32,736 bases of DNA, taken from Methanophagales archaeon (GTDB lineage: Archaea; Halobacteriota; Syntropharchaeia; Alkanophagales; Methanospirareceae). The first letter of the stretch is position 1. Every line of letters begins with the position of its first letter. The notes under the pieces were generated by a model. That model was not told the DNA's origin and did not search any database. It saw nothing but the letters and a program-made list of their open reading frames with translations. A program made the position numbers and the translations under genes. Shown here piece by piece: positions 7,300 to 31,028 of this stretch. The stretch spans positions 1-32,736 of the forward strand of contig JAGGRR010000015.1 in NCBI GenBank assembly GCA_021159465.1. The letters run 5' to 3'.

Positions 7300-7301
7300 C
7301 T

Positions 7302-8819: not shown

Positions 8820-8844
8820 CGCTCATTCTTGATAGAATCTCGGA

Positions 8845-9294
8845 TCAGATCCATTCCTTCAACTTCGCTTCGAGATATGGTTTTGGTAAAGCGCCCTGGA
8901 TAACATCCACCGGCTCGCCGTTCTTAAATATGAACATTGTGGGTATAGCCATGATAGCGAACTCAGCGGCAATCCGTGGATTCTCATCCACATTCAGCTT
9001 CCCAAAAACAACCTTACCCGCATATTCACGCGCCAGCTCATCTATTATCGGTGACACCATTCTGCATGGCGCGCACCATGGAGCCCAGCAATCTACCACG
9101 ACCAGTGGATATTTCCTCACGGTTGGTATAAAACTGCTATCATCCAGGGTCAGGGGGTGGTCAATTAACTCCTTTGACCCCTCACCTTTCTTATTTCCTC
9201 TCATTGCACTCATTCTCGCTTCCATTTCACGCATCTTCTTCGCTTTTATCTGCTCTATCTCGAAATCTTTATTGCCACTACCCTCTTCCTTCAT
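8845..9294 (-). CDS. trx: Thioredoxin with N-terminal charged extension
   Basis: A 149-residue protein. Residues 42-149 are a standard thioredoxin fold with the active site WCAPC (C74, C77), the conserved buried Asp-type position in VVVDCWAPW and the cis-proline motif AIPTMFIFKNG. It reduces protein disulfides in the cytoplasm. The first ~40 residues (KDFEIEQIKAKKMREMEARMSAM) are highly charged and probably helical, which normal ~105-residue thioredoxins lack. No signal peptide is visible. The gene is first in a likely operon with DP1 and uppS, and there is no obvious functional link to replication. Confidence 0.93.
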   Translation of the reverse strand: MKEEGSGNKDFEIEQIKAKKMREMEARMSAMRGNKKGEGSKELIDHPLTLDDSSFIPTVRKYPLVVVDCWAPWCAPCRMVSPIIDELAREYAGKVVFGKLNVDENPRIAAEFAIMAIPTMFIFKNGEPVDVIQGALPKPYLEAKLKEWI

Positions 9295-9376
9295 CCTGAT
9301 ACCCTCCTTTGTCTTTATGAAACAGCATAAGAAATAGCTTTTATCTATTTAAGTTTTGTTGTTAGATGTTATTGTA

Positions 9377-9452
9377 CCGTATTGTGGTTACCTCTTGCGG
9401 TCATTGCTCACATCAAATTAAATGTTGCTACCGCAGGGACCGTACAATACGG
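9377..9452. repeat. Nested inverted repeat / possible structured element in the mfnB-trx intergenic space
   Basis: CCGTATTGT at 9377-9385 is matched by ACAATACGG at 9444-9452. Inside it TGCGGT (9396-9401) is matched by ACCGCA (9430-9435), so two stems nest coaxially. The right arm is also a small hairpin on its own (CCGTA-CAA-TACGG). No ORF of note lies in the 254-bp gap 9295-9548. It could be a structured RNA leader or 3' element, or the relic of a small inverted-repeat transposon. Nothing in the sequence decides between these. Confidence 0.5.
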
Positions 9453-9548
9453 CTCTCTGTTGCCCCCCGTTTGCCCATAGTAATCATCCTATCTTACTAC
9501 TCTTCGAAGAGGGCAATTCTAGTATTCTTCATTATTATAAATAAAATA

Positions 9549-10265
9549 TCACTCCACTATCATTCTCTTCAAATTCCGTACCAGGTCCTCTCTCACCTTC
9601 GCTCTCCGATCTCCTCCACAGACCATGCCCCGGACACCTATTATATCGGGTGCTATCTTCTTTATCCTGGGTACATCCTCGAACTTAAGCGAGCCTGCGA
9701 GTGCTGTTTCCAGTCCAAGCGCCTTTGATTCTCCAATAAAGCGCCTGAGTTCCTCTTCACTCATGAATTCCAGTGTTGAACGCCCGTCTTTTATACCTGT
9801 ATCGAGCATTGCCACATCTATATCCACCGCCTCTGCAATCTCAGAGATCTCAAAAGGTGAGATCGAATTTATTCGCTTATAGTCAGAATAGAAAGCAGAA
9901 ACCACTTTCTTTGTGGATGCGACGTTCTTCACCGCTCTAACCACCCCGGAGAGGAGGTTAATCGCCTCCTGCTTATCTCTTATCCCAAAAAGACCAACCT
10001 TTACGTATTCAGCACCTGCAGATGCAGCACCTAATGCAGCTAAAGAAGCAGTTCCTGGTCTATAATCGAAATCCCCTATCGCTGCGCTCACTTCTACCGC
10101 TTCACCACACTCACTCATAACCAGCTCCTTTACTGACTTGATAACCCAGGGAAAATTCGCACCCAGAGAACCCTCAGATGGATTCTTCACATCTATTATG
10201 TCCGCGTCACCCTGAATCACTGCCTTCGCTTCTTCCAAATCCTTCGGACTTACCAACAATCTCAT
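9549..10265 (-). CDS. mfnB: (5-formylfuran-3-yl)methyl phosphate synthase
   Basis: A 238-residue TIM-barrel enzyme (formerly DUF556) that condenses two glyceraldehyde-3-phosphate molecules to 4-(hydroxymethyl)-2-furancarboxaldehyde phosphate, the first furan intermediate of methanofuran. MRLLVSPKDLEEA at the start, the lysine at position 27 in IIDVKNPSEGSLGANFPWVI and the second lysine at 89 in AEYVKVGLFG fit the family's catalytic lysines. MLDTGIKDGRSTLEF carries a third lysine. Methanofuran is the first C1 carrier of methanogenesis or reverse methanogenesis, so this gene points to a methanogen-related lineage. It starts 10 bp after rpiA ends and the two are likely co-transcribed. Confidence 0.95.
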   Translation of the reverse strand: MRLLVSPKDLEEAKAVIQGDADIIDVKNPSEGSLGANFPWVIKSVKELVMSECGEAVEVSAAIGDFDYRPGTASLAALGAASAGAEYVKVGLFGIRDKQEAINLLSGVVRAVKNVASTKKVVSAFYSDYKRINSISPFEISEIAEAVDIDVAMLDTGIKDGRSTLEFMSEEELRRFIGESKALGLETALAGSLKFEDVPRIKKIAPDIIGVRGMVCGGDRRAKVREDLVRNLKRMIVE

Positions 10266-10275
10266 TTCCTTTCCC

Positions 10276-10959
10276 TTATTTCTTTAATATCTCCACACCT
10301 TCATCATCACCCACATGCACTTCCGAAGCATTGGTAAAGATACCATGCTCAACAGAGCCAACGATCGAAGAGAGAGCCATACTCATCTCCTCTGGATTAT
10401 TTATAGTCCCCATATCCACATCCAATATCAGGTTCCCTCCTTCTGTGATGAAATAACCGCCTCTATTCCCATCCTGCCTCAGGACGGGAACACCGCCAAG
10501 CTGCTTCACCTGTGCCTCGACCACCTTCACTGCGTATGGCAATACCTCCAAAGGAACCGGCTTATTCAAGCGTTTCACCATTTTGCTGTCATCAACGCAG
10601 ATAACAAACCTCTTCGCCGCGTATGATACTATCTTCTCCTTTGTATGCGAGCCCCAGCCGCCCTTTACCAGGTTTAACTGTAAATCAACCTGGTCCGCAC
10701 CATCTATGCTGATATCGAGCGAAGGGTGCTCAGAGAGCGTGGTAACGCGAATACCGGATTCTATCGCGACCATCTCGGTTCTGAGCGAAGTAGGGACACC
10801 GAGAATCTCAAGCTCCTCTACTTTTACACGCTCTCCCAGCTTCATTATCGCCAGTTCCGCTGTAGAGCCCGTACCAAGACCAACCACCATGCCATCTTTC
10901 ACCATTGATACAACAGATTCCGCTGCTTTCTCCTTCTTCATGCTCTTATCCACCGTCAT
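10276..10959 (-). CDS. rpiA: Ribose-5-phosphate isomerase A
   Basis: A 227-residue RpiA that interconverts ribulose-5-phosphate and ribose-5-phosphate. GLGTGSTAELAI is the phosphate loop, SIDGADQVD carries the catalytic acid pair and KEKIV carries the conserved Glu/Lys. The loop that normally reads KGGGGA(A/L)xREK is KGGWGSHTKEK here, an unusual variant that keeps the Lys-Glu-Lys. The rest (FVICVDDSKMV, PVPLEVLP, EHGIFTNASEVHVG) is ordinary. Downstream of Fae-Hps in the pathway sense, it turns the ribulose-5-phosphate from the reverse ribulose monophosphate route into ribose for nucleotides. Confidence 0.94.
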   Translation of the reverse strand: MTVDKSMKKEKAAESVVSMVKDGMVVGLGTGSTAELAIMKLGERVKVEELEILGVPTSLRTEMVAIESGIRVTTLSEHPSLDISIDGADQVDLQLNLVKGGWGSHTKEKIVSYAAKRFVICVDDSKMVKRLNKPVPLEVLPYAVKVVEAQVKQLGGVPVLRQDGNRGGYFITEGGNLILDVDMGTINNPEEMSMALSSIVGSVEHGIFTNASEVHVGDDEGVEILKK

Positions 10960-11065
10960 CTCTCAATCTGTCTTTTCCATATTAAGTATTTTTCTATTTT
11001 TACCTCTTGCCTTTTTGCCTTTTGCAGGTATGGATAGTGATAATAATAATGGAGCGAAGTATATT

Positions 11066-11548
11066 TTATCTCAGCCCTTTCAGTCTCTCACGCATATTTA
11101 GCCAGTGAGAGCCTTTCCAGTATATCCTGCCACAGCTATTACAGACCCAGAACTCCCACTTCCCTATTTTATCTCCTGGAACATAGCTCTTAGCCAGTAG
11201 CATAGCCTCTTCCCCGTCCTTCACCTTTCTGAGCTCACCATTGCAGGTGCTGCACCGACGCGGTACGGGTTCAAGATTTATGTCGATTTTATGGTGAAGT
11301 AACTCCTTCAACTGTTCCATCACCTCTCCGCCTTTCACATACACATATCGAATACCCCTCCGCTTTGCTTCTCTTATCATATCCCTATCACGTGTGAGCA
11401 ATATCCGCCCCTCTCGTTCCGCGAATGTGACTATAAATCGGTCTTCATCATCTTTAACATCCAGGTCCGCCGCATATACTGTATCGTAGCCCAGGATACG
11501 CAACCACGTGCTCAATTTCCCCAACATTCTATCAGTTACGAATCTCAT
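11066..11548 (-). CDS. Mut7-C family PIN-like RNase domain plus zinc ribbon
   Basis: A 160-residue protein with a Mut7-C (PIN-like) nuclease fold over residues 1-85. MRFVTDRMLGKLSTWLRILGYDT gives the first acidic residue (D6), followed by DDEDRFIV and LLTRDRDMI for the remaining acids. A four-cysteine zinc ribbon follows (CSTCNGEL and CNSCGRIYW) and the ending ...WKGSHWLNMRERL is typical of the family. It is presumed to be an RNase, but substrates are not known for the archaeal members. It overlaps the alkyltransferase gene by 4 bp, so the two are co-translated. Confidence 0.88.
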   Translation of the reverse strand: MRFVTDRMLGKLSTWLRILGYDTVYAADLDVKDDEDRFIVTFAEREGRILLTRDRDMIREAKRRGIRYVYVKGGEVMEQLKELLHHKIDINLEPVPRRCSTCNGELRKVKDGEEAMLLAKSYVPGDKIGKWEFWVCNSCGRIYWKGSHWLNMRERLKGLR

Positions 11549-11877
11549 CCTCTCCCAACACTGGAAAACTGAAAAAGTACCTCATTGATCTTCTTCACCT
11601 TTCTACCTTCTATCTCTATCCCCTCTGCTCTCAGTAGCTCTATCTTCTTCGCTATACCCTGACTATAACCCCCTATATCACCGTCACTTCGCACCACCCG
11701 ATGGCAGGGTATAACCCCCGGGTGGGGATTCTTCGCAAGTGCCTGTCCAACTGCACGGGCGGCATGTACTGAACCCTTTACTTCGTTGGCTATTCTACCG
11801 TATGTCGTCACTCTGCCCTTCGGTATCTGCATCACTAACTTCAATACCGCTTCCTGAAATGTCTCACCCTCATCCAT
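11545..11877 (-). CDS. ogt: Methylated-DNA--cysteine methyltransferase (MGMT/Ogt C-terminal domain)
   Basis: A compact 110-residue protein consisting only of the DNA-binding and active-site domain of O6-alkylguanine-DNA alkyltransferase. GRVTTYGRIA leads the helix-turn-helix, RAVGQALAKNP carries the arginine finger and PCHRVV holds the acceptor cysteine C58. Because the cysteine is present, it should transfer alkyl groups rather than be an alkyltransferase-like (ATL) sensor. The usual N-terminal domain is absent, as in many short archaeal and bacterial forms. The ATG is preceded by a GCAATA microsatellite (11879-11901) that fills the whole gap to the HisA-like gene, so spacing and ribosome access could vary between strains. 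Confidence 0.92.
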   Translation of the reverse strand: MDEGETFQEAVLKLVMQIPKGRVTTYGRIANEVKGSVHAARAVGQALAKNPHPGVIPCHRVVRSDGDIGGYSQGIAKKIELLRAEGIEIEGRKVKKINEVLFQFSSVGRG

Positions 11878-11878
11878 T

Positions 11879-11901
11879 GCAATAGCAATAGCAATAGCAA
11901 T
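11879..11901. repeat. Hexanucleotide microsatellite (GCAATA)n
   Basis: Nearly four tandem copies of GCAATA fill the space between the stop of the HisA-like gene and the start of the MGMT gene. The tract lies exactly where a ribosome-binding site for the MGMT gene would be. Confidence 0.9.
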
Positions 11902-12626
11902 TAATGCAGGTAAGAGACCGGAATTGTACCATTATGGATGGCAGTAGCAACAAGTACACCCTTTACTCCTATATCCTCCATTTTGTAGAGGTCTTCACAA
12001 CTTCTCACACCACCACCGCACAGGATATCATGCTCAGAGCATTCTACAGCGCGAGCGAGGAAATCAAAGTCTACGCCTATCCCCGTGCCCACTCTGTCCA
12101 GTTCCAGTAAGATAATATCCCGAATTGGATAAGAATTTAACTCCGTTATCAAGCTCAGAGGGTCTATCCTCATTCTCCTATCAGAGGTCTGTACCTCCTT
12201 ATTGAAGAGGTCTATACTCACAGTCACGGTCACAGGTATAGTTAAGGAGGCTGATGAGGATTTAGAAGCTATTTCACGAATCAAATCCAGTGATGCTGTT
12301 TCTGTACCCAGAATGATGCTGTCAGCTATATCAATTATATCTCCGATGTCCGCTATGGATTTTATACCATAATCCAGCGCCATCCACATTGTTCTGTACC
12401 TATGTCTCAACTCATCCAGTATCTCCCGGTTGGAACCGTTACCCATCAGCCTGTTCAGGTCGGCGATATAAACAGCAGCAGGTTTTATCTTCTCTATGAC
12501 TTGCCCGGGCTCCGATGTGCTGACAATCGAACTGAAAAGATGAACCGGCTGATATTTCTCACGTGCCCCCCTCTTTGCATGTACCACCATGCCGTTGAGC
12601 AGGTCCATCACGAAAATCAGCCTCAT
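11901..12626 (-). CDS. HisA/HisF-related TIM-barrel protein
   Basis: A 241-residue (beta/alpha)8 protein of the HisA/HisF superfamily. The N-terminal Asp in MDLLNGMVVHAKRG, YIADLNRLMG at strand 3, ILGTETASLDLI and the C-terminal phosphate-binding motif LCGGGVRSCEDL...GVKGVLVATAIHNG are all visible. It differs from canonical HisA throughout, and methanogens commonly carry such a second HisA-like protein in addition to the histidine enzyme. Its substrate is not known to me. A VTVTV run near residue 130 comes from a GTCACx repeat. It sits just downstream of fae-hps (15 bp gap) and is likely co-transcribed with it, which hints at a sugar-phosphate substrate. Confidence 0.8.
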   Translation of the reverse strand: MRLIFVMDLLNGMVVHAKRGAREKYQPVHLFSSIVSTSEPGQVIEKIKPAAVYIADLNRLMGNGSNREILDELRHRYRTMWMALDYGIKSIADIGDIIDIADSIILGTETASLDLIREIASKSSSASLTIPVTVTVSIDLFNKEVQTSDRRMRIDPLSLITELNSYPIRDIILLELDRVGTGIGVDFDFLARAVECSEHDILCGGGVRSCEDLYKMEDIGVKGVLVATAIHNGTIPVSYLH

Positions 12627-12641
12627 AATATCTGATAGATA

Positions 12642-13841
12642 TCAGAAATCGGTCATCACCCGGTACTGGTCTATCTCCTCCTTCATCAATCTCAGGAATC
12701 GCCTCGCTGTACCTTCCACATCCCTTGAATTTGTTATACCACGACCCACAATCAGTATATCTGCACCGCCCTTCAATGCCTCAGGTGCATTCTCCTCCCT
12801 TATCCCTCCTGCAACCGCAACCAGAATCCCACCACCTATACGTTTTATCTCCTCTATATTCCCCCACGCATGCTGTTCTCCCAGTTCTTCAACGTCTATC
12901 GCACGATGCAGTTCCACAACATCTGGCATTAGTCCTCCTATGCTCAACTCTTTTAGCAGCTCTATCGGACTTCTCACATTCAACATATCCAGGCTGGAGT
13001 AAATGCCTGTCTTCTTCGCTTCTTCTATCGCTTTCTCTATTGTCCGAAGCGGTGCCAGACCTGAGATTACTACTGCATCAGCACCAGAGTCCGCAACCAT
13101 TCTCGCCTCCAGATTACCGGTATCGAGCGTCTTCAAATCGGCAATCACAAACGTCTCGGGCTTTATCTCCTTTATCTTACCCACTATATCCACTCCGTAT
13201 CGCTTTATCAATGGCGTACCTGCCTCTATAATCAGATGGTCATTCCGTGGCAATGCCTTTATCACCTGCTCCATATGCCCCCAATTTGGTATGTCCAGTG
13301 CAACCTGCAGATATGGTGGGTCCCACAACTTCGTCACTTTCATACCCAGGGCAGGATGTCGTGACCTGTCCTTCTCGTACAGCACCTTCTTTACATCCGG
13401 GAAGCCGGTCATCGCCCTCTTTATCGCTAATTTCGCTGCCCCATAGTTGAACCGATATATCTTATTATAATCACGCGCCTGGGGATGCACGAACACACTT
13501 GCAATCACCACGAGATCCTCCGCTTTCTCCGCCTGTATTATCCCCTCCTCCACCGAATCTGCTACCGCTTTCGCTATTGCACTCTGTGCAGGTCCAAATA
13601 TCTTATCCGCATCCTTCATGTTCTGCACCGTCACTTTCGGTACGATCAATGTAGGTGGTTTTACTGGTAGATTCGGTCTTATCACTGCGAATACCGGAGT
13701 GTGCCCGACAGATAACTGGCTGAGGGCATTTGTGAATGCCATTCCTACAGGTCCATACTTGTCCCCTATCATAAGATCAATGTGAGCAACCTCTGGACCT
13801 TCCCCTATCAGTGCCTCCCCAACATACATATCCTTATTCAC
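12642..13841 (-). CDS. fae-hps: Bifunctional formaldehyde-activating enzyme / 3-hexulose-6-phosphate synthase
   Basis: A 399-residue fusion. Residues 1-165 are Fae ([23 protein letters not shown] with the catalytic His20; [20 protein letters not shown]), which joins formaldehyde to tetrahydromethanopterin. Residues 175-399 are the Hps orotidine-decarboxylase-like barrel ([66 protein letters not shown]), which splits hexulose-6-phosphate into ribulose-5-phosphate and formaldehyde. In archaea without the oxidative pentose pathway this fusion runs in reverse to supply pentoses while trapping formaldehyde on H4MPT. It overlaps the marker-6-like gene by 8 bp and precedes the HisA-like gene. Confidence 0.96.
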
Positions 13842-14202
13842 CTTCTATCTTATCCAGTGCTCTCCTTACTTTTGGTAAGAGCGAGTGTTCCAGTTCAAGC
13901 TGATGGAAACCGGGTCTCGGACCTCCTCGCCTCGTGGCACGGCATATTCGCGGGTCACCAATAGGAAAGCCTCGCGGTTTCGAGTAGATACCATTCCTGT
14001 CCATCTCTCTCACTTCATCTATTATCTGCTTCAATTCGTCCGCTTCTCCCTCCACTAATGCACCATAACATGTCTCCTTCACCTTGATACTCCTGTTCGA
14101 GCCACTAAGTATCGCCAGAATCTTGCCCTTCATTTGCGCCGGTGTTACCTTCGAATCCGGTGAGATCAATATCTCCCTCGTCTCAATACTCATATCCTTC
14201 AT
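13834..14202 (-). CDS. Methanogenesis marker protein 6-like
   Basis: A 122-residue protein I match from memory to the methanogenesis marker 6 family. Marks are [16 protein letters not shown] at the start, [15 protein letters not shown], a central [18 protein letters not shown] and the ending [20 protein letters not shown]. Members occur in methanogens and relatives, and the biochemical role is not established. The invariant-looking cysteine in KETCYGA and the CRATRRGG segment are the obvious functional candidates. It is first in a gene string with fae-hps (8-bp overlap) and lies directly after tRNA-Ile. Confidence 0.8.
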
Positions 14203-14214
14203 TTACCCCCTTTA

Positions 14215-14289
14215 TGGGCCCGCGGAGATTTGAACTCCGGACCTCTCGGTTATCAGCCGAGCGCTCCAACCAGCCTAAGCTACGAGCCC
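14215..14289 (-). tRNA. tRNA-Ile (anticodon GAT)
   Basis: On the minus strand, from 14289 to 14215, a full cloverleaf can be drawn. The acceptor arm is GGGCTCG with CGGGCCC (one G-T pair), followed by discriminator A. The anticodon arm is TCGGCTGATAACCGA with loop CTGATAA, so the anticodon is GAT. The T arm is CCGGAGTTCAAATCTCCG. It is 75 nt, has no intron, and CCA is not encoded. Confidence 0.97.
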
Positions 14290-14449
14290 ATAACATAAGA
14301 TGTAAAGATATATTCTTTATTCCTTTATTCCTATATCCATTCTATTCATTCTACACTAAAAGTTTTAGTTCCTTTTCTTTGTATAGCTTTATTCCATTAT
14401 ACCTTCATACCAAACTTTTTTCTTTTACCTTCTCTTTTTCATTACTATT

Positions 14450-14758
14450 GTGCATAATCGGGGGGATATATACATAAAGAGGTACGAACTCGGGCTCGAT
14501 GTGCTCGTGGCGGTTTGCGATAGCGAGCTGATAGGGAGGCGTTTAGAGGAGGGTGAGCTCAGTCTTGAGGTATCAGAATCCTTTTATAAAGGTGAAGCAG
14601 TAACCGAGCGCGAAGTGATTGCGAATCTGAGGCAGGCAACGATTGCGAATCTGGTTGGAGAAAGGGCGGTAAGATGTGCACTTGCCAATTCCTTCATCGA
14701 AGAGGCAAATGTGATATTCATCGAAGGTGTACCGCACGCACAGATGGTGCGTATATAA
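14450..14758 (+). CDS. DUF424 family protein
   Basis: A 102-residue archaeal protein with the DUF424 pattern: DVLVAVCDSELIGRRLEEGELSLEV, FYKGEAVTE, a helical NLRQATIANLVGERAV and the ending IEGVPHAQMVRI. The family is nearly universal in archaea and small. Its function is not settled, though a link to translation has been suggested by gene context. It starts at GTG 14450 (an alternative start slightly downstream at the IYIKRYELG region would also preserve the domain). It ends 9 bp before the convergent TrkA-N/DHH gene. Confidence 0.88.
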   Translation: MHNRGDIYIKRYELGLDVLVAVCDSELIGRRLEEGELSLEVSESFYKGEAVTEREVIANLRQATIANLVGERAVRCALANSFIEEANVIFIEGVPHAQMVRI

Positions 14759-14767
14759 ATTTTTTAT

Positions 14768-16255
14768 CTATTCGCTCTTCTCTTCCTTCATCACCGAGAG
14801 GAACCGCCTTGATACCGCATCTTCCGCAAGCTGCATTATCGTCTCCTTGTCCTTTACACCCTTGAAGATGCCCAGTGGCAACTGTGCCGCAGCCATCGTA
14901 GCATGCCCGCCCGCTGAGCCGATATCCCCGAACGCGCGTACAAAAGCATCTCCTATATTCACCCTTATATCTTTACTCCGCCCTGAAACGCATATCATGT
15001 CCTCGCATAGCCCTATCACCACCACCGTTGATATCCCTTCCAGATTGAGCAGATAATCCGCCGCCTGCGGTATGGCGTCGCGATTCGCTACTACCCCCAC
15101 ACTCGTGATCAGATAACTCCCCTTTATCTTCTTATGCTGTATCGCACCCCCCACCACATTCAACATCTCTGTGGACATGGGAGGCGTCTCTATCTGATCT
15201 AATAGCTCTTTATCTGCCCTCAAATGCAGGAATGCCGCGGCATAGAAATCTGCCGGGTGTGTCTCTCGCTTAAATCCACTTGTATCTGTCCTTATACCAT
15301 GTAATAACGCAGTTGCAAGAATTTTGTCTACCGGTATACCCAGCTCACGCAGATACCTCGTCATCATCGTTGATGTTGCACCACTATCTGTCTGTATATC
15401 TATGAATTCGGCATGCACTTTACCCTTATCGTTCGCTACATGGTGATCTATGATAATAGACACGTCATTTTTATCGGTTAATGGATTGTTAGCGCCAGGA
15501 ACAGAGGCGTCAACCAGTGCCAGTTTCTCATAGCTTCGCAAATCATCTTCTCTTTCTATCCTCCGCATCTCTATCCCCAGGATGTTCACAAATGCGCGAT
15601 TCACGTGGTGTCCTATCTCGCCCCTGTAGAGTATATCCGCTGGTACTCCTACCTGCCTTGCTATCTGCTTGAGTGCGAGTCCGGAAGCTATTGCGTCAGG
15701 ATCTGGACTGTCATGGACGATAATACCTAACTTACCGTCGGGCTTCTTCTTTATCTCGCCTATTATTTGCGTTAATTTCTTCGCCTTCTTCCTGAACCTC
15801 ATCCGCTCCAGATAGTCCAGTGCTGTTTTCGCTGTCAGATCTGGTATAGCAAGAATCACATCCACATCCAGCTCCTTCAGTGCCTCTTTATCCCCCGGTT
15901 CAATCGCTCGCACTACAAGCTGAGCATCTGGTAACTTCTCCTTTATATTCCTCGCCGCCTTCCTGTTCACCTCGCCATTGCTGCTCATGATAAAGACCAC
16001 TTCTGGCGTACCCTCGCTTTTTATAACCTCTACCGTATCCGGGTCGCTTATATCCCCCACGAACGCAATGAAGTCCTCTTCTTTCAGCAGTTCCACCTTC
16101 TTATCATCTATATCCACAATGACGACATCAATACCACACCGCTTCAATTCCTTTGCCACTGCGTAGCCCATTCGCCCGCAGCCACAGATAACCTGCACTA
16201 CTTTCCCTCTCTTCTGCTCTGTCCCGCTTACCTCAGTATCTGTATCTCCTGCCAT
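14768..16255 (-). CDS. TrkA-N (RCK) plus DHH/DHHA1 phosphoesterase fusion
   Basis: A 495-residue protein. Residues 15-140 form an NAD-binding TrkA-N domain (VICGCGRMGYAVAKEL, VVIVDIDDKK). Residues 170-495 form a DHH-family phosphoesterase of the NrnA/RecJ-like type: HDSPDPDAIASGLAL, LALVDAS, IIDHHVANDK, HGIRTDTSGF and the C-terminal GSAGGHATMAAAQLP of DHHA1. The metal-binding Asp/His motifs look complete, so it probably hydrolyses short oligonucleotides or a (cyclic) dinucleotide. The RCK domain would sense a nucleotide or NAD(H). This architecture is common in euryarchaea, but the substrate is not proven. A DTDTE run near the N terminus is coded by a short repeat. Confidence 0.9.
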   Translation of the reverse strand: MAGDTDTEVSGTEQKRGKVVQVICGCGRMGYAVAKELKRCGIDVVIVDIDDKKVELLKEEDFIAFVGDISDPDTVEVIKSEGTPEVVFIMSSNGEVNRKAARNIKEKLPDAQLVVRAIEPGDKEALKELDVDVILAIPDLTAKTALDYLERMRFRKKAKKLTQIIGEIKKKPDGKLGIIVHDSPDPDAIASGLALKQIARQVGVPADILYRGEIGHHVNRAFVNILGIEMRRIEREDDLRSYEKLALVDASVPGANNPLTDKNDVSIIIDHHVANDKGKVHAEFIDIQTDSGATSTMMTRYLRELGIPVDKILATALLHGIRTDTSGFKRETHPADFYAAAFLHLRADKELLDQIETPPMSTEMLNVVGGAIQHKKIKGSYLITSVGVVANRDAIPQAADYLLNLEGISTVVVIGLCEDMICVSGRSKDIRVNIGDAFVRAFGDIGSAGGHATMAAAQLPLGIFKGVKDKETIMQLAEDAVSRRFLSVMKEEKSE

Positions 16256-16323
16256 TTGCTTAATGTATTCTTTTAACTAATATACATACTCTCAATGTAT
16301 CATTTATTACTATTATTAAGATA

Positions 16324-17010
16324 ATGCGGAACAGTGATTGGCGCTCGATATACGAGGAGATACTGAAAGATTTTGGGTTTGATGAAGAGAGAGATAAAGA
16401 AGCGATGAGAATAGCATCAGAAATTATGGGTCATAGAGCTATAAATAGCTTGAGGGTACAGAATGAGTTAGAAGAGCGAATAAATGGTAAAGAAGCGATA
16501 GTATGTGGTAATGCACCCTGTTTGGAAGATGACATAAAGGCTAAGGGGCTCGAACGCGAACCTTCACAGCGCGGACGCGTTATAATCGCCGCGGACGGTG
16601 CCACTTCTGTTCTCGTTCGCGATGCCATATTACCTGATGTCATTGTTAGTGACCTGGATGGATATATCCCTGATATAATATATGCAAACAGACTCAGTTC
16701 GATAGTCATTGTGCATGCACATGGTGACAATATAGAGATGTTGAAGAAGGTACTGCCTGCACTGAATGCGAATGTGATATGCACAGCCCAGAGCAGTCCG
16801 ATAACTCCTCATGGGCACGCCTCCTCAAATATCTTCAACTTCGGGGGATTCACTGATGGTGACCGCTGTGTATTCATTGCGAAGGAGTTTGGTGCGAGGC
16901 GGATAGAGCTTTTAGGGTTTGATTTCGAGGATACGCAAGTAACCGAAAGGAAGAGGAAGAAACTGAAGTGGGCAAAACGACTGATAGAAGGGTGCATCCC
17001 AGTCCATTAG
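16324..17010 (+). CDS. mptE: 6-hydroxymethyl-7,8-dihydropterin pyrophosphokinase (DUF115)
   Basis: A 228-residue archaeal MptE, which attaches diphosphate from ATP to 6-hydroxymethyl-dihydropterin in tetrahydromethanopterin/folate synthesis. Family marks are NAPCLEDDI, VIIAADGATSVLVRDAILPDVIVSDLDG (nucleotide and metal site), VIVHAHGDNIEML and NIFNFGGFTDGDRCVFIAKEFGA. It is divergent from the TrkA-N/DHH gene, and the 68-bp gap contains an AT-rich block (about 16266-16300) that could hold both promoters. It is the last housekeeping gene before the accessory island. Confidence 0.92.
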   Translation: MRNSDWRSIYEEILKDFGFDEERDKEAMRIASEIMGHRAINSLRVQNELEERINGKEAIVCGNAPCLEDDIKAKGLEREPSQRGRVIIAADGATSVLVRDAILPDVIVSDLDGYIPDIIYANRLSSIVIVHAHGDNIEMLKKVLPALNANVICTAQSSPITPHGHASSNIFNFGGFTDGDRCVFIAKEFGARRIELLGFDFEDTQVTERKRKKLKWAKRLIEGCIPVH

Positions 17011-17104
17011 ATAGTTTGATAGTTTGTGTGAGAAAGAGAATGGAGGAGGCGTAAAACGATGTAAGGAAGGAAAATCGAGGAAATGGGAGTTTCATCCAGA
17101 GGGA

Positions 17105-17225
17105 TGTATATGCGCAATATTGCGGATATAACACCAAAATGGAAGGATATACGCATTGCAGATATAATACCAAATGGGAGTTATTTATGCAGTAATGCGG
17201 ATATACCGAAGTTATGTGAAATTGT
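17105..17225. repeat. Degenerate direct repeats of about 40 bp
   Basis: Three imperfect units share the core GC(A)x-ATTGC(A/G)GATATA-(A)x-CC(A)AAA(T)GG: one starts near 17110, one near 17150 and one near 17190 (the last has TAATGCGGATATACC). A 60-codon frame (17083-17265) runs through them, but it has no recognisable domain and I do not call it a gene. The stretch 17011-17269 otherwise contains nothing I recognise. Confidence 0.5.
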
Positions 17226-17269
17226 GGCTACGAATATTACAGATATTTTATTTAGAGAAATATAATTAT

Positions 17270-17281
17270 TAACCTTAACTC
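17270..17281. repeat. Left terminal inverted repeat of the IS
   Basis: TAACCTTAACTC, the exact reverse complement of 18797-18808. It defines the left end of the insertion sequence. Confidence 0.9.
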
Positions 17282-17364
17282 TTCCATTTTTAGGGTTTAA
17301 CTTTTTGGATATTCCCCCGCTAAACCTTTATTCTTTGATCGGAGATTCTAGCGGATAGAAAACT

Positions 17365-18792
17365 ATGTATAGTGTTATTCCCTATAGGGAATACATGGAG
17401 CAATGGGTTAAGGACTGGGTTAAGAAACAGAGGGAGAGTGGGGAGAAGGGGATCGAGATAAAGAAGCAGGCAAACAGTTATTATGTCTACAGGTCGACGA
17501 CTTACTGGGATAAGAAAGCGAAGAAGAGAAGAAAGAAATCTACATACATAGGGAAGTTAAGCAGGGATGGTTTGAGAGAAAAGAAGGAGAAAAGGGTCAC
17601 TGTAAAGCAGTATGGGAATGCTGTGTTACTTCAGGAGGCTATGAAGGATATTGTTCCTTCTCTCAAGGTATTTGAGAGCTGGGAGGAGATATACGCCCTT
17701 GCGTTGGTGAGAGTTATGGATTACGTCCCTCTGAAGAGGGTTAAGGCTGTGTGGGAGAAACTGTACATGAAGGGTTTATCGCCCAACTTGAACCCCAAGA
17801 AGCTGTCAACAGTGTTGAGAGAAGTCGGATTGGACAGGGAAGGGCAGAATGCTGTCTTCAATCAGTTGATGAAGGGGGAGAGCTTTGTTTATGACTTGAG
17901 CGTAGTTTTCACCAGGTCAGCCATCAATTTCGCTGAAGTGGGGTACAACAAGGACAAGATACACATCCCCCAGATCAACATTGCATTACTATACTCCTCG
18001 GATGGTTTACCGGCGATGATAAAGGCTTTACCCGGTTCAGTCAGAGATATAACTTCAATCTACAATAGTGTGAAGGAGATTGATTCCCACGTAATCCTTA
18101 TGCTGGACAGGGGCTTCTTCTCCATGGGGGTGGTAAAGTTCCTGTTGGACAAAGCATCTTTTGTTATTCCTGCTAGAAGGAATAGCAAGCTTTACGAAGA
18201 AGAAATAGATGTTAAAGACCATTTCTTCTACAGGGAAAGACTCATAAAGTGCGGTAAAACCGGGAAAGAGATTAAAGGTGAAAGGAAAAAGAAGAGCTAC
18301 TACCTCTACCTCTTCGAGGACGTCACCCTGAGAGCTGAAGAGGAAATAACCCTATATAAAAAGCATGATAAAGGCAAAATCAGCAAGGAAGAGATAGAAA
18401 AGGGGTTGAAGAGGGCAGGCAAAATCCTTATCATCTCTGATCTAGATAAAGAACCAAAGGATATCTTCCTGATGTACAAGCAGAGAGAAGGAGTGGAGAA
18501 AGCCTTCGACGTATACAAAAACGTGCTGAACGCAGATAAAATGTATTTACAGGACAATGAGAGCGTATTTGGTCATTTATTTGTGTCCTTCCTTTCTCTT
18601 TACGGATACTGCAAGTTGCAGTGCATGCTGAGAGAGAAAGGAATGCTAAACAAGGTATCTCCCATGGATTTGATGGATGAATATGCCAAAGTCTACAAAG
18701 TGGAATATGGAGACAAAGAACTGATGTCCGAGGTTCCAAAAAAGGTTAGGGAGCTGGACGAGAAACTTGAGTTAAACTTATTCCCTAAATGA
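17365..18792 (+). CDS. DDE transposase (IS4/IS1634-like)
   Basis: A 475-residue, very lysine-rich transposase that looks intact. An N-terminal basic region (YYVYRSTTYWDKKAKKRRKKSTYIG) is followed by the RNase-H-like catalytic core. The first Asp is in FVYDLSVVFT (about D177), the second in ILMLDRGFFS (D248) and the Glu in QREGVEKAFDVYKN (about residue 380), preceded by the usual aromatic/basic context. The FGHLFVSFLSLYGYCKL segment near the end is typical of the family. The reading frame has no interruption, so the element may still be active. Confidence 0.92.
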   Translation: MYSVIPYREYMEQWVKDWVKKQRESGEKGIEIKKQANSYYVYRSTTYWDKKAKKRRKKSTYIGKLSRDGLREKKEKRVTVKQYGNAVLLQEAMKDIVPSLKVFESWEEIYALALVRVMDYVPLKRVKAVWEKLYMKGLSPNLNPKKLSTVLREVGLDREGQNAVFNQLMKGESFVYDLSVVFTRSAINFAEVGYNKDKIHIPQINIALLYSSDGLPAMIKALPGSVRDITSIYNSVKEIDSHVILMLDRGFFSMGVVKFLLDKASFVIPARRNSKLYEEEIDVKDHFFYRERLIKCGKTGKEIKGERKKKSYYLYLFEDVTLRAEEEITLYKKHDKGKISKEEIEKGLKRAGKILIISDLDKEPKDIFLMYKQREGVEKAFDVYKNVLNADKMYLQDNESVFGHLFVSFLSLYGYCKLQCMLREKGMLNKVSPMDLMDEYAKVYKVEYGDKELMSEVPKKVRELDEKLELNLFPK

Positions 18793-18811: not shown

Positions 18812-19642
18812 AAGATAAAAGATATAGTAGCAATAGCTAACTCAGGCGGGGGAGCGATAATATTTGGTGTTAATAATCATGGGAAAGCTTCTGAGTATGA
18901 TGTGTCATCTATTTTAGATCTGGATCCTGCGAAAATCACCGATAAAATAGCAAAATACACGAATCAACAATTTTCAGAATTTGAAATAGAAGAATTTAAA
19001 AGAGATGGAAAGAAAATAGCGGTTCTCATAATTTTTGGCGTTTCTTTGCCAATGATTTTTACTAGACCTGGAACATATAACATAGACGGCGGACGCCAAA
19101 AAACAGTTTTCAGTAAAGGAACGATATACTTTAGACACGGAGCTAAAAGTGAGCCAGGAGATTCTAATGATTTATCAAGAGTTATTGAAGGAAGACTTGA
19201 GGAGATCAGAAAATCATGGTTAAGTGGTGTCAGAAAAGTTGTGAGTGCTCCTATTGGGCACGTAGTCCAAGTATTACCCCCAGACGTAAAAATGTCTATA
19301 CGTTCTGATGCGATACCAGTGAGAATAACAAACAACAAAGAAGCCCCTGCTTATAAATTAGAAACCCCAGATAGTACCTACCCATACAGACAAAAGGAAG
19401 TAATAGAAAACGTGAACAAGAAACTAAGAGGCAAAAAGATAGTCAATCAATATGATATTTTATGCGTTAGAAGAGTTTACGGAATAAATGAGTTAAGACC
19501 TGATTTTTATTATAAACCCAAATATGGAGGGCCTCAATATAGTGAAGAATTTGTTGATTGGTTGGTTGAGTCCTATGAAAATGATCCCTCATTTTTTGAT
19601 ACGGCGAGAAAGAAAAAGAAGTATTATGAAAGTAGAAGATAA
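18812..19642 (+). pseudogene. AlbA_2 (Schlafen-type) domain protein, 5'-truncated by the IS
   Basis: The frame opens right at the IS edge and reads KIKDIVAIANSGGGAIIFGV, the core motif of the AlbA_2/Schlafen DNA- or RNA-binding domain found in bacterial and archaeal HTH regulators and defence proteins. The domain continues through FIFxRxG-like segments (GTIYFRHGAKSEPG). The residues normally ahead of KDIVAIANS (including the ExKEFK-like strand) are missing, so about 30 or more codons were lost. A GTG at 18902 gives an open 246-codon frame but would start inside the domain. The C-terminal half (residues about 140-246) has no motif I know. Codon use is AT-rich compared with the housekeeping genes. 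It ends 28 bp before the first attC-like site. Confidence 0.82.
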
Positions 19643-19670: not shown

Positions 19671-19762
19671 GCGTATAACAGAGCGTATCTGACTTCGGTG
19701 CTTCGCACCTCTACCAAAATTCTCCTTCGGGAAACTTCAGATACGCTCGAAACGTTATACGC
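19671..19762 (+). other. attC-like recombination site 1 (candidate)
   Basis: A 92-nt imperfect palindrome. The outer arms are GCGTATAAC (19671-19679) and GTTATACGC (19754-19762), a perfect match. The inner arms are GAGCGTATCTGA (19681-19692) and TCAGATACGCTC (19737-19748), also perfect. The spacers are asymmetric: A on the left, GAAAC on the right. The centre holds small hairpins (GGTGCTTCGCACC and TCCTTCGGGA). R''-L''-loop-L'-R' with ...AAC on the left and GTT... on the right is the layout of integron attC sites, and the size is in their range. The orientation is right for + strand cassettes. The arms depart from the strict RYYYAAC/GTTRRRY consensus, so this is a candidate. Confidence 0.6.
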
Positions 19763-19897
19763 AATCATGGAGTAAGAGCGTTTGGTAAGGTTGCTATACT
19801 ATTAATATATTATTAAAACTACTAGGCTAACAGGTGATGAAGTCCACCTTTAACCGCTTTCAAAAGCTGATGACTTCTGAAACTATAAGTATCGACT

Positions 19898-20722
19898 ATG
19901 TATGTTGATGTGGTTAAGGAGCGGACTATTAATTACGTAACCAGATGTAGGTGTGTAGAGGGTGGATTTTGTTTTTATAGATTAGAAGAACCGAATGCTT
20001 CAGATACCTATTATGCATTATCTATCCTGAATTTATTGGGTATTGACATTGAAGACGATGATACCGTGTTCTATCTGAAAAATCTACAAAAAAAAGATGG
20101 ATCATATAGCAGTATTTACTCAGCGTATTATTCAATTAAGAGTTTATTATTGTTAAACGAAAAGCCGATATCGAGTCCAAGAGCATATATCCTAAATAAC
20201 ATCAATTTTTATAATGTTAATAAACTACCAGTTGAAGTTATTTCAATTTTTAAACCCTTGTGGTATCTGATGGATTTGTGCTTCAGACTAAAAATTGAAC
20301 TGGATGACAAACTTAAGAGAGATTTAATAAATTTTGTTCTCACTTTCAGGAATGACGATAACGGTTTTGGAAATACTAATTCTACGCTTATTGAAACTTT
20401 TCAAGCATTATCGATTCTGAACTGGTTGGATTATGAAATAGATTCTTTAGGGGTTAAATCGTACATTAAACGCTGTGAAAGCCCTGTTTATGGCTTCGTG
20501 AATGTACCCAACACCGCACCTTCGTTCATTGAACATATACATGCCGGAGTAATGACGAGTAATTTATTAGATTATAAGCCACATTACATATCTCAATGTG
20601 TTAAATTTATAATGGGATGTCAAAATAACAATGGAGGATTCTCAAGAGGGTCGATTGGAATATCTACATTAGAGTATACATATTATGCTATTGAATCGTT
20701 GGCTAATTTATCAATTAGTTGA
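19898..20722 (+). CDS. Prenyltransferase/squalene-cyclase-like alpha/alpha-toroid protein
   Basis: A 274-residue protein built of helical repeats like those of prenyltransferase beta subunits and terpene cyclases. There are recurrent GGF...DTYYALSILNLLG (residues about 22-49), DGSYSSIYSAYYSIKSLLLL, DNGFGNTNSTLIETFQALSILNWL and NNGGFSRGSIGISTLEYTYYAIESL segments, each a glycine turn followed by an aliphatic helix. CRCVEGGF and CQNNNGGF resemble the Cys/Gly motifs at repeat starts. No DxDD or zinc triad is obvious, so the catalytic role is unknown. The gene is strongly AT-rich, stands alone and is the only gene between the two attC-like sites, 136 bp after the first and 76 bp before the second. 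Confidence 0.75.
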   Translation: MYVDVVKERTINYVTRCRCVEGGFCFYRLEEPNASDTYYALSILNLLGIDIEDDDTVFYLKNLQKKDGSYSSIYSAYYSIKSLLLLNEKPISSPRAYILNNINFYNVNKLPVEVISIFKPLWYLMDLCFRLKIELDDKLKRDLINFVLTFRNDDNGFGNTNSTLIETFQALSILNWLDYEIDSLGVKSYIKRCESPVYGFVNVPNTAPSFIEHIHAGVMTSNLLDYKPHYISQCVKFIMGCQNNNGGFSRGSIGISTLEYTYYAIESLANLSIS

Positions 20723-20798
20723 AATATATCTATTCCTCCATGACTCTTCGTCACTTCGTGCCTCGCCCCGTTGTACTCTCCTCCTTTCTGTCGTCTGG

Positions 20799-20877
20799 GC
20801 GTATAACAGGTGCGTATGCGGTTCGCTTCGCTCATCCAAACCCTTACGGGCTTCGCATACCTACCAAACATTAGGCG
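20799..20877 (+). other. attC-like recombination site 2 (candidate)
   Basis: A 79-nt imperfect palindrome with the same plan as the site at 19671. The left outer box is GCGTATAAC (20799-20807, identical to site 1), then A, then GGTGCGTATGCG (20809-20820). The right side is CGCATACCTACC (20854-20865), spacer AAAC, then ATTAGGCG (20870-20877). The inner arms pair at 10 of 12 positions. ATTAGGC is one base from the canonical GTTAGGC core. The loop includes GGTTCGCTTCG and CCCTTACGGG. Left boxes and right spacers (xAAAC) of the two sites correspond although their arms differ, as expected for two attC sites rather than two copies of one repeat. Confidence 0.6.
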
Positions 20878-20902
20878 AAATGCTATCTAAGGAGTGGAGG
20901 TT

Positions 20903-21353
20903 ATGACAACAGATACCAGAGAGAAGCTACTCGAGGCGAGGTACTTCTTGGAACAAATGAAGGAGAGACAATCTGACCAAGATGCTTTCAAATACAATCT
21001 TAGTGCATTCTTGGCTGCAGCTCGGAGTGTGACTTTGATTATGCAAAAGGAATTTGCAAGGCTCCTGGCTTTAAAAATTGGTACGCTGAGAAACAGTCTA
21101 AGATGCAAAGCGACAAGACCATGAGACTTTTGAATGATAAACGAGTGATGACAATAATTCACCAACAGCCTGTTCGGTCTCATGCTCATGTTAATATAAG
21201 AAGCAGCGAGCACATCACATTAGTGAAAGCATCTCAATCGTCATCACCCGCGCCAACGGCACTGTTGAAAGATGGGAATCAAAGCCGACGCCACCACCTG
21301 CACCTGTTAAAACCAATGTGACAACGGAATGGCGATGGTATTTTAATGAATAA
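20903..21353 (+). pseudogene. Frameshifted hypothetical protein gene
   Basis: A strong GGAGTGGAGG precedes ATG 20903. The first frame gives MTTDTREKLLEARYFLEQMKERQ...AARSVTLIMQKEFA, a helical N-terminal part. Near 21060 coding continues one frame over (PGFKNWYAEKQSKMQSDKTMRLLNDKR), and near 21222 it shifts again (ESISIVITRANGTVERWESKPTPPPAPVKTNVTTEWRWYFNE) to a stop at 21351-21353. Joined, this would be a protein of about 148 residues with an acidic/helical start and a proline-rich end. I do not know its function. Two frameshifts within 300 bp make it non-functional unless the sequence is wrong. Confidence 0.65.
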
Positions 21354-21384
21354 CCTCCCCTCAAAGTACCTACAATCTTGAAGC

Positions 21385-22202
21385 CATTGGTTCTGGAAAA
21401 GCAAAAGAACCGCAAGCAGGCTGAAAATACCCGATGTAGAACGGTTTATAGACATAATGAGACTCATTATGGTTGCAGATCTCTTTGAAATGAGCTATTC
21501 CGATTTTATATCGGAATTAAAAGATAATGAGAAGCTGAAAACATTTATGGGTGTAAGAAAAATACAAATGGTCTTATTACCCCTCTGAAGGGTATTATGT
21601 TGGTTTTAAGCTGATCGTTGCGATAGACGCCGAGAATTACGAGCTATCAGGTTATGAACTCTACGATGGATGCCCGAATGGTGCAATTATACTTATTCCA
21701 CTCATTGAAAAGCTACACATACACAGCGCGAAAAAGATGAGTATGTGCGATGTAATCATCTGTGATATGGGTTCTAACTCAATGAAGAATTATATCACCA
21801 CCATTAATCGATTTTTCGTTATTACAATCATTTATATTTATCCAGGGATGAATACAAATATGAGTAAGATTGATGCAAATCTCGTTCCACCGCTCGATAT
21901 ATGATATGGGCTGGAAAGGGTTATTTGCTTGACATTTGGAATAAGATCAGATCAGATCTGGCAAGAATTCCTTGGGCTAATCGAGAAGTGGGAAACGTTC
22001 AAAGAAAAACGGAGCAGAATCGTGGTATTATCCGATATTGTGAAAAATACGCTTGAATTGAAGCGTTTGCATCAATATACAGGTAGAAGTATTGAAAAGA
22101 GAGTGTGTCGTATCTTCTATTTAGCTTTCTACCTCATACAGTTGTCTAAAGGCATGGAGATAAGTGCGAGAGAGCTTGTTTATTGGTGAGTGGAGGAGGG
22201 AG
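21385..22202 (+). mobile_element. Decayed DDE insertion sequence, copy A
   Basis: The stretch contains a broken transposase gene. Both its left part (about 21385-21443) and its right part (about 22056-22202) are repeated at 25567-25795. The element's right end lies in the sequence GGGAGTTACC, where it abuts a truncated membrane-protein gene on the other strand. Confidence 0.75.
21421..22189 (+). pseudogene. Transposase pseudogene (DDE type)
   Basis: Fragments in different frames line up with one transposase. The N-terminal LKIPDVERFIDIMRLIMVADL and FEMSYSDFISELKDNEKLKTF come first. After a frameshift near 21560 comes the core YYPSEGYYVGFKLIVAIDAE... DVIICDMGSNSMKNY, ending in TGA at 21901-21903. 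The C-terminal EKWETFKEKRSRI and LKRLHQYTGRSIEKRVCRIF...ARELVYW follow in a frame that is open from 21929. The second catalytic motif reads ICDMGSNS where ICDRGFxS would be expected. At least two disruptions make it dead. Confidence 0.75.
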
Positions 22203-23889: not shown

Positions 23890-24862
23890 ATCGTCACAAG
23901 TATGTCACAAGTATAAATGCAATGCCGTGACTGCGGTCATGGGTTCACCGCAAAGGACGCGGAATGCCTCAAAAGGGTAGATTCGGCGTGAATCTACCTG
24001 TATATCTGATAATGTTGAAATTTAGCCTCCGCGGTGTTCTTCTTCTTCGCAGAATCAAAGATTTTGCTTTCCATCTCAATGCCTTTGTGATCACACCTAA
24101 GGGCATTCAAGATGTATCCTCCGTGTAGGAGCAGCCTGCAAGACTGTCTATCTCCAGAATATCAATAAAATCAGAAATGCAAGGTGGATTTATATGGACG
24201 TGACGGGAATGCGGGTTCTCAATAAAAACTACTGGCTCTGGACTTTCAGGACGCCTGATGACGAAGTGGTGGTAGCGATCAGACCGTCGAGGGGTGAGGA
24301 CGTTTTACGTGAATTTTTCGGCTTGGACATCAATGGTGCGGGTGTTGTCGATGGCTGGCGTGCCTATAATCATCCCTGTCATACAGCGATGCTGGGCGCA
24401 CCTGATAAGGGAAGTAGACACGTTCGTTGAACAACCAGGGGTAAGGAGCTGTCAGAAGCCTTTCATAAAAAATTCAAGGTGCTAAAAGAGTTCCTCGGTA
24501 AAGACCTATCGGCATCCATGGAAGAGCGGAAACGGCAGAAAGAAGTGAGGGATAGCGAAATGGCAGATGGCAAAGCATTTTGATCAAACTTTCCTGAAGT
24601 TTGAATCAGGAATGGTCTGGGGGAACTGGTATACGTGCATGCTTTATCCATGTATGGAGTCAACAAACAATCTCAGTGAGCAGTTTATCAGGGAGCATGT
24701 GCTCATGCGGACGATCATGGGTATTTTTAGATTCGGAGATCGGTGCCGATGCCGAATATTACCAATACATCGCTTCCGTCTTCGCCACGTGACGGTTACA
24801 GGGAAAAGATGTCTACGACGAACCCAAAAAATTGCTCGTTAATGTGCTTTGTTTGAAGTGGG
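23890..24862 (+). pseudogene. IS66-family transposase pseudogene
   Basis: Pieces in all three + frames rebuild an IS66-type transposase. CRDCGHGFTAKDAECLKRG is the zinc-finger part. Next come FSLRGVLLLRRIKDFAFHLNAF, then MDVTGMRVLNKNYWLWTF and RPSRGEDVLREFFG (first catalytic Asp region), then VVDGWRAYNH (second). IQRCWAHLIREVDTF, a lysine-rich spacer, the NNLSEQFIREHVLMRTIMGIF end with its Glu motif and QYIASVFATW follow. Frames change near 23990, 24390, 24440, 24560, 24590 and 24740 or so, and stops interrupt. It is an old, dead copy; I did not identify its terminal repeats. Confidence 0.8.
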
Positions 24863-24992
24863 CTATACAATTACTAAGAATGATTTGCGGGACAGGCTCA
24901 TTGAATTAAAAATAGCAGGAGGTTGCTTGAATGGGCAGAGAAACATATTGAACTTTAATTTAATTGCAATATAATAAAGAGAATTCATAGAG

Positions 24993-30715: not shown

Positions 30716-30956
30716 TTCTCACTTACCTCGTTTCTCACTTTATCTCTTTTAATAAATTAATGTAATCATTTTCCATCATCACCATCACCATAGCTTTATG
30801 GCAGGTATCCAGTCATAATAACCCTAACCCCTTCCGTTAGCGTCAATGAATTTATCGCAAGTAATTGTTCCTCCGGTTGCTTTGTCATATCATATGCAGT
30901 CCATGAATTATATGATTATGACCTTGCAACAGCATGAGATAAGCACAGGGGCAGTA

Positions 30957-30980
30957 GTCATATAATCTATATTATACGAC
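30957..30980. repeat. Inverted repeat GTCATATAAT-CTAT-ATTATACGAC
   Basis: Two 10-bp arms with one mismatch flank a 4-base loop. The arm sequence is the complement of the ATTATATGAC that ends each of the direct repeats at 31029 and 31063. Confidence 0.6.
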
Positions 30981-31028
30981 ATAAGCCACGAAAAGCTTTA
31001 AAATCGTATATCAAAACCCTCAGAACGG

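Follow-up and report, generated by a model that had tools for sequence, protein, structure and literature searches.

Most integrons described in archaea are clusters of attC sites lacking an integrase gene (CALINs); six archaeal IntI integrases with the additional domain have been reported, and the attI sites lie 3' of intI (Ghaly et al. 2022, PMC9668308). That survey used IntegronFinder, in which an integrase is called only when the IntI-specific domain is matched, so a lineage without this domain (I2) would be missed or booked as a CALIN. In known attC sites the L arm carries two or three extrahelical bases; without them, the asymmetric spacer is still able to bias the choice towards the bottom strand (PMC2727003). 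IntI reads the extrahelical bases through I2, and the two have been described as co-evolved (PMC4792948). Escudero et al. (PMC4792948) regarded their joint origin as a chicken-and-egg paradox that functional intermediates could resolve.

The window analysed here is the whole of contig C15 (32,736 nt; JAGGRR010000015.1) of a Methanophagales (ANME-1) archaeon, whose genome assembly (1.89 Mb, 268 contigs) is 97% complete. A preliminary description of the window had proposed an integron-derived cassette array in a methanogen-related archaeon. The cassettes and the Methanophagales host were borne out, but the lineage is not an integron in the strict sense, because the additional domain of IntI is missing from its recombinase and extrahelical bases from its sites. 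We consider it probable (roughly 0.8) that the window carries a degenerate copy of a widespread integron variant that is driven by a recombinase related to Xer and IntI but devoid of I2.

This platform resembles IntI integrons in its one-gene cassettes with a structured site, its G^TT crossover, its asymmetric central spacer and its attI beside the integrase gene, which lies 3' of that gene as in the archaeal integrons of PMC9668308. It differs from IntI integrons in the missing additional domain, a HARP-like N-terminus, an attI of repeated palindromes, sites without extrahelical bases, and an array oriented in the same direction as the integrase. The Spirochaete integrons with reversed intI (PMC9668308) share this last trait, whereas their integrases are counted as IntI. 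With XerA and XerCD-dif (NF040815) the platform has in common a catalytic domain without the I2 insert, a score over the XerA_Arch cut-off and dif-like palindromes at attI. Unlike those systems, its integrase is tied to a cassette array and an attI, and the chromosomal XerA-like protein of these archaea forms a separate, distant branch. The CTX phage also relies on an I2-less Xer recombinase and on a folded single-strand site without extrahelical bases (PMC4792948), a mode of recombination that would apply here as well; in contrast to this platform, CTX borrows the recombinase of its host and lacks cassettes, an attI and arrays.

Results

Arrangement of the degraded platform

The elements of the platform lie on the plus strand of the window in the order integrase relic, attI, start of cassette 1, IS1634 element, cassette 1 ORF, site 1, cassette 2, site 2 and broken cassette 3. 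The relic (17004-17059, '..PLDSL..EKENGGGVKR') consists of the last codons of an integrase gene in a broken frame, overlaps the 3' end of an MptE-like gene (16324-17010), and aligns with the intact integrase 3' ends of four related loci (L108, L110, L102 and L105). The attI-like site (17101-17211), which matches the block directly 3' of intact integrases in relatives, contains three palindromes, at 17107-17130 (TATATGCGCAATATTGCGGATATA), 17145-17167 and 17181-17207, followed by the putative crossover point between G17211 and T17212. Judging from the R' box, the first cassette would start there (TTATGTGAAAT..., 17212-17364); it is interrupted by an IS1634-family transposase gene inserted in the island (17365-18792; NF033559, 137.5 bits). 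The cassette 1 ORF (18902-19642) has lost its 5' end and encodes a C-terminal EC042_2821-like endonuclease domain. The first bases of cassette 2 (19755-20870), TTATACGC, can pair with the R'' box of the same cassette, GCGTATAAC. Cassette 3 (20871-21373) starts with TTAGGCGAAAT, its ORF from 20903 is frameshifted, and no third site was detected downstream of it in the window.

The attI-like block behind an integrase 3' relic marks the window as a degraded platform, and the sequence is best read as what remains of an integron-like platform after decay. With two attC-like sites and no integrase gene the window formally falls within the definition of a CALIN (at least two attC sites, no integrase gene), as the preliminary description had suggested; since it retains the integrase 3' relic and the attI-like site, however, it is more than an integrase-less cluster. 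A tRNA gene lies to the left of the island (14215-14289, minus strand), and decayed transposase-like frames were noted by eye at its right edge (21420-22190 and 24200-24900).

Cassette 2 is a cassette of about 1.1 kb with a single ORF, as had been claimed. The ORF (19898-20722, plus strand) encodes a prenyltransferase-type alpha/alpha toroid protein (PF00432, E=3.8e-21) that was absent from all 50 related genomes searched. The cassette also contains a fluoride riboswitch (19824-19886, plus strand; Rfam RF01734, 54.4 bits against a gathering score of 34), and thus cassette 2, at least, supplies its own RNA control. The riboswitch precedes the prenyltransferase-toroid gene, not a fluoride exporter. 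Scans of eight other array loci yielded no riboswitch.

Structure of the two palindromic sites

Both palindromes were located with their exact boxes on the plus strand. Site 1 (19671-19762, 92 nt) reads GCGTATAAC-A-GAGCGTATCTGA ... TCAGATACGCTC-GAAAC-GTTATACGC, with R'' at 19671-19679, a spacer at 19680, L'' at 19681-19692, L' at 19737-19748, a second spacer at 19749-19753 and R' at 19754-19762. Site 2 (20799-20878), measured at 80 nt, reads GCGTATAAC-A-GGTGCGTATGCGG ... CTTCGCATACCTACC-AAAC-ATTAGGCGA, with R'' at 20799-20807, L'' extending to 20821, L' at 20851-20865 and R' at 20870-20878. Of the plan that the two sites had been said to share, the complementary arms of 12 nt are too strong a description for site 2, whose arm consists of seven perfect pairs and a mismatched portion.

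Folding likewise separated the two sites. Both strands of site 1 folded far beyond shuffled sequences and the bottom strand folded best (z = -7.8; 0 of 200 dinucleotide shuffles as good), whereas site 2 as integrated showed no excess stability over dinucleotide shuffles (z ~0). When the far end of site 2 was replaced by the start of its own cassette, a full outer stem formed (-15.1 vs -9.7 kcal/mol), so the null result for the integrated site is explained by the circular form of the cassette. A scan of the window against Rfam returned no attC-type family. A weak model match elsewhere in the window (30890-30981, minus strand) lacked R boxes and was dismissed.

A family of sites in the host genome and its relatives

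Relatives of site 1 were found on other contigs of the host genome. A covariance model, R1, was built from eight sites of this genome, including the two of the window, and it found further sites on other contigs with E down to 2e-17. At E<1e-4, R1 recognised 21 places in the genome, some of them outside the set used to build the model, with arrays on contigs C75 (three sites, one weak), C157 and C218 (three sites). That related genomes hold more such sites was confirmed in 50 of the 51 genomes of the host family (Methanophagales, ANME-1), with up to 27 sites per genome. At least two sites within 4 kb, among ORFs of the same orientation, occurred in the window, on C75 (3) and C218 (3), and at two further loci, L105 (5) and L126 (6).

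Across the family alignment, 91.4% of cells in the arms were paired and the covariation score was 0.64; this alignment was fitted to the model and is hence biased towards it, and a second alignment, A2, gave a similar result. The score exceeded all 500 shuffles (0.19 +/- 0.01) and any slid alignment (at most 0.12), which shows that the arms keep pairing rather than sequence. In the box consensus, AAC and GTT were near invariant and position 1 of R' was G in 89% of sites; the middle bases of the R boxes were often TAT/ATA where attC boxes (R'' RYYYAAC, R' GTTRRRY) have YYY/RRR. The central spacer was unpaired and asymmetric, most frequently 5 nt against 1 nt.

No single-base bulge was found in the main helix of 65 of the 71 sites. 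The same code found one or two such bulges in each of four class 1 attC controls, a small set in which the strict box pattern left out the dfrA1, dfrA12, dfrA14, estX, psp and gcuF attCs; further class 1 attCs agreed. When R1 itself was run on class 1 attCs it gave no matches, and since it misses them R1 is unfit as a substitute for the attC model of IntegronFinder.

A signature of circular cassettes

A cassette that left its array as a circle is expected to carry an R'' box matching its own start, which the preceding site of the array contains. R'' boxes agreed with the R' at the start of their own cassette at 4.69 of 6 variable bases on average, with 14 of 36 pairs exact, and with the R' of their own site at 3.17 of 6, with none of 36 exact. 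Shuffled pairs agreed at 3.37 +/- 0.17 bases, and none of 10,000 shuffles gave more than eight exact pairs. The site pair of the window is among the 14 exact matches. When the circular junction was rebuilt, the hairpin became more stable in 29 of 36 cases and less stable in 3 of 36 (p=3e-6).

Replacement of a cassette is visible between sister genomes. Over 6597-17167 the window shares 89% identity with a sister genome, G006, and the identity ends inside attI, at palindrome 2; palindrome 3 is missing from G006. Beyond attI, the same platform continues in G006 with another cassette, which has a site of its own (60 bits), in agreement with the expectation that related genomes would differ by gene exchange at the boxes. 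The replacement cassette (L208, G006:C3, ~7146-8381, minus strand) encodes a protein of ~410 residues at the same attI.

The palindromes thus follow the 3' ends of genes within arrays of one strand, show strong covariation between their arms, and carry an outer box that matches the start of their own cassette. On these comparative grounds the palindromes are cassette recombination sites, as the preliminary description had held.

Linkage of integrase, attI and cassette arrays

In relatives, an intact integrase gene stands ahead of the array in the same orientation. At L105, for example, the integrase and attI are followed by five alternations of ORF and site. Over 64 loci of the main integrase group, 52 sites (E<=1e-3) lay 3' of the integrase on the same strand, in 251 kb of such sequence in total, and a single site was found elsewhere (440 kb upstream plus all minus strands). 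Where more than 1.5 kb of room was available, 24 of 33 main-group loci had a site and the R1 search found none in the other nine; loci of distant homologues had none (0 of 14). The intact integrase genes of ANME-1 genomes were mostly at contig ends, and the genomes analysed were almost all MAGs.

The integrase stop codon is followed directly by one to three dif-like palindromes (TATACGAA..TTCGGATATA), and after these a short spacer leads to the G^TT at which the first cassette joins. This arrangement recurs in loci of ANME-1, WOR-3, Nitrospinota and Caldisericota. The palindrome arms change in a compensatory manner (CGCAATATTGCG, CGAACTCGAGTTCG, CGACATTGTCG), and palindromes were denser in attI regions (1.47 per 260 nt) than in stretches drawn at random from those loci (0.30). 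A conserved palindromic block adjoining the integrase gene, the window included, is what would be predicted of an attI.

Two further platform relics were observed in the host genome. The first (L056, G000:C218, 86-2939, minus strand) has an integrase 3' end ahead of three sites; one of its ORFs, of 275 residues, resembles by eye a nucleotide-binding TIR-like defence protein (no Pfam match), and another is CAAX protease-like. The second (L022, G000:C52, 11574-12777, plus strand) comprises an integrase 3' end, an attI-like palindrome, a TauE/SafE exporter cassette and a site.

The integrase lacks the IntI additional domain

The integrase is ~340 residues long, with mostly 52-73% identity over a main group of 80 named loci and 38-50% to remoter loci. 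Its archaeal hosts are Methanophagales, Altiarchaeota, Nanohalarchaeota, Methanocellales, Micrarchaeota and Archaeoglobales, and its bacterial hosts include Nitrospirota, WOR-3, Nitrospinota, Caldisericota, Acetothermia and Acidobacteriota. The spacing from KGxKDR to HxLRH was 58-61 residues in 58 integrases, compared with 100-101 in two IntIs and 62-66 in XerC/XerD. This short spacing in all 58 measured proteins indicated that the IntI additional (I2) domain of ~40 residues is absent. The integrase scored 226-239 bits against the integron integrase model TIGR02249, below the cut-off of 265 and with matches split around the insert, and 255-257 bits against NF040815 (XerA_Arch), above the cut-off of 220, and NCBIfam places the protein in the latter family. 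A profile of the integrase family scored IntI4 from the PDB at 195.7 bits and XerA at 188, and the integrase family and IntI have a C-terminal SPLD motif in common.

In 18 of 32 members the first 60 residues gave a match to Pfam HARP, with a best E of 5e-5. In an AlphaFold model of moderate confidence overall (pTM 0.52), this region formed five strands and two helices with pLDDT ~90, the make-up described for HARP, which has been named among the junction-specific DNA-binding domains (PMC4666394).

In a quick tree search with four IntIs and long branches, IntI formed a single clade (SH-aLRT 98) that was the nearest neighbour of the integrase family (90). XerC/D and the chromosomal XerA-like protein of ANME-1 lay apart from the integrase family, which was not nested in IntI and had distant I2-less homologues branching near its base. 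The placement of IntI as nearest neighbour is to be taken as a lead only.

The preliminary description had also called for a search of related genomes for an IntI with its additional domain. No IntI scored above the cut-off in the 51 family genomes, or in 394 genomes of the phylum, which were searched without a positive control. Integrase genes of the platform were found in the host genome as relics only (C52, C218 and the window), none of them intact. The one full-length tyrosine recombinase of that genome, on contig C122, is a distant XerA-like protein and was rejected as the integron integrase. Since only integrase relics are present, the cassettes of the host genome are possibly immobile unless an integrase is supplied in trans, and the copy in the window probably is.

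Two observations concern homologues elsewhere. A Chryseobacterium plasmid (L216, NZ_CP041688.1, 5971-7014) encodes a 42%-identical homologue annotated as tyrosine recombinase/integron integrase, and R1 found no sites near it. In three ANME-1 genomes (loci L102, L106 and L108) the integron integrase adjoins, by eye, a dihydrodipicolinate-synthase-like gene, which may mark a common chromosomal insertion place.

Discussion

In the mechanism that we propose, an intact platform consists of an integrase gene, an attI-like site and a same-strand array in which each cassette brings one gene and one hairpin site. The I2-less integrase, rather than a different one, would carry out recombination by binding attI as a palindromic duplex and the cassette site as a hairpin of the bottom strand, and its HARP-like N-terminal domain is a candidate reader of that hairpin. 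The asymmetric 5:1 spacer would select the strand and so give the reaction its polarity. A single exchange at G^TT between the folded cassette site and attI would then insert the circle, and cassettes would be exchangeable in this way.

Several other explanations were weighed against an integron variant with its own I2-less integrase. The sites could be ordinary attCs forming a canonical CALIN, served by an I2-bearing IntI encoded elsewhere or in bacteria, with the Xer-like gene a bystander. The overall architecture, the R boxes and the G^TT point are indeed attC-like, and other archaea have true IntI integrons (PMC9668308), but the search of 51 family and, without a positive control, 394 phylum genomes gave no IntI above the cut-off, extrahelical bases are missing from 65 of 71 sites, and the sites are tightly linked, in a fixed orientation, to the I2-less integrase across both domains, with relics beside two arrays of the host genome itself. 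We regard a canonical CALIN as improbable. A dispersed palindrome family of the REP/MITE kind, intergenic by chance, would account for the many scattered copies per genome (up to 27), singletons among them. It would not predict oriented same-strand arrays behind an integrase and an attI; moreover, the arms covary rather than being copied and the boxes of neighbouring sites match, which makes this origin highly improbable. We give even less credence to bacterial contamination or misbinning of the integron contigs. The genome is a draft in 268 contigs and several array contigs are merely 4-5 kb long, yet the contig of the window carries archaeal genes for alanyl-tRNA synthetase, the DNA polymerase II small subunit and a Fae/Hps fusion, its left flank (MptE-like gene, integrase relic and attI) is collinear in the sister genome, and 50 of 51 family genomes have the sites.

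Within the preferred reading, an integron variant with an I2-less integrase, the history of the lineage can be read in more than one way. It may be a true IntI lineage that lost I2 and the extrahelical bases secondarily. The adjacency of IntI and the integrase family in the tree, the SPLD motif of both and the slightly higher score of IntI4 over XerA point in that direction; IntI is nevertheless a clade of its own (SH-aLRT 98) with the integrase family outside it, in a small tree, and distant I2-less homologues lie near the base of the integrase family. Secondary loss thus appears rather unlikely to us. Tentatively, and with somewhat greater weight, the lineage may be a living intermediate: a widespread system of hairpin sites whose recombinase never had I2 and whose sites never had extrahelical bases, in which a HARP-like junction-binding domain would recognise the hairpins, and to which many CALINs would possibly belong.

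Within the open-licence literature we found no description of this pairing of recombinase and site; archaeal integrons as such were already known. Annotators already treat XerA and the integron integrase as one, as the NCBIfam name of NF040815 ('site-specific tyrosine recombinase/integron integrase') shows. Because I2 and extrahelical bases are missing together in a coherent and widespread cassette system, the question of their origin becomes directly testable, and the platform may reveal how integrons can operate, or formerly operated, in the absence of both features. The presence of the sites in 50 of 51 genomes points to this system as a main route of accessory-gene exchange in ANME-1 methane oxidisers and between archaea and bacteria.
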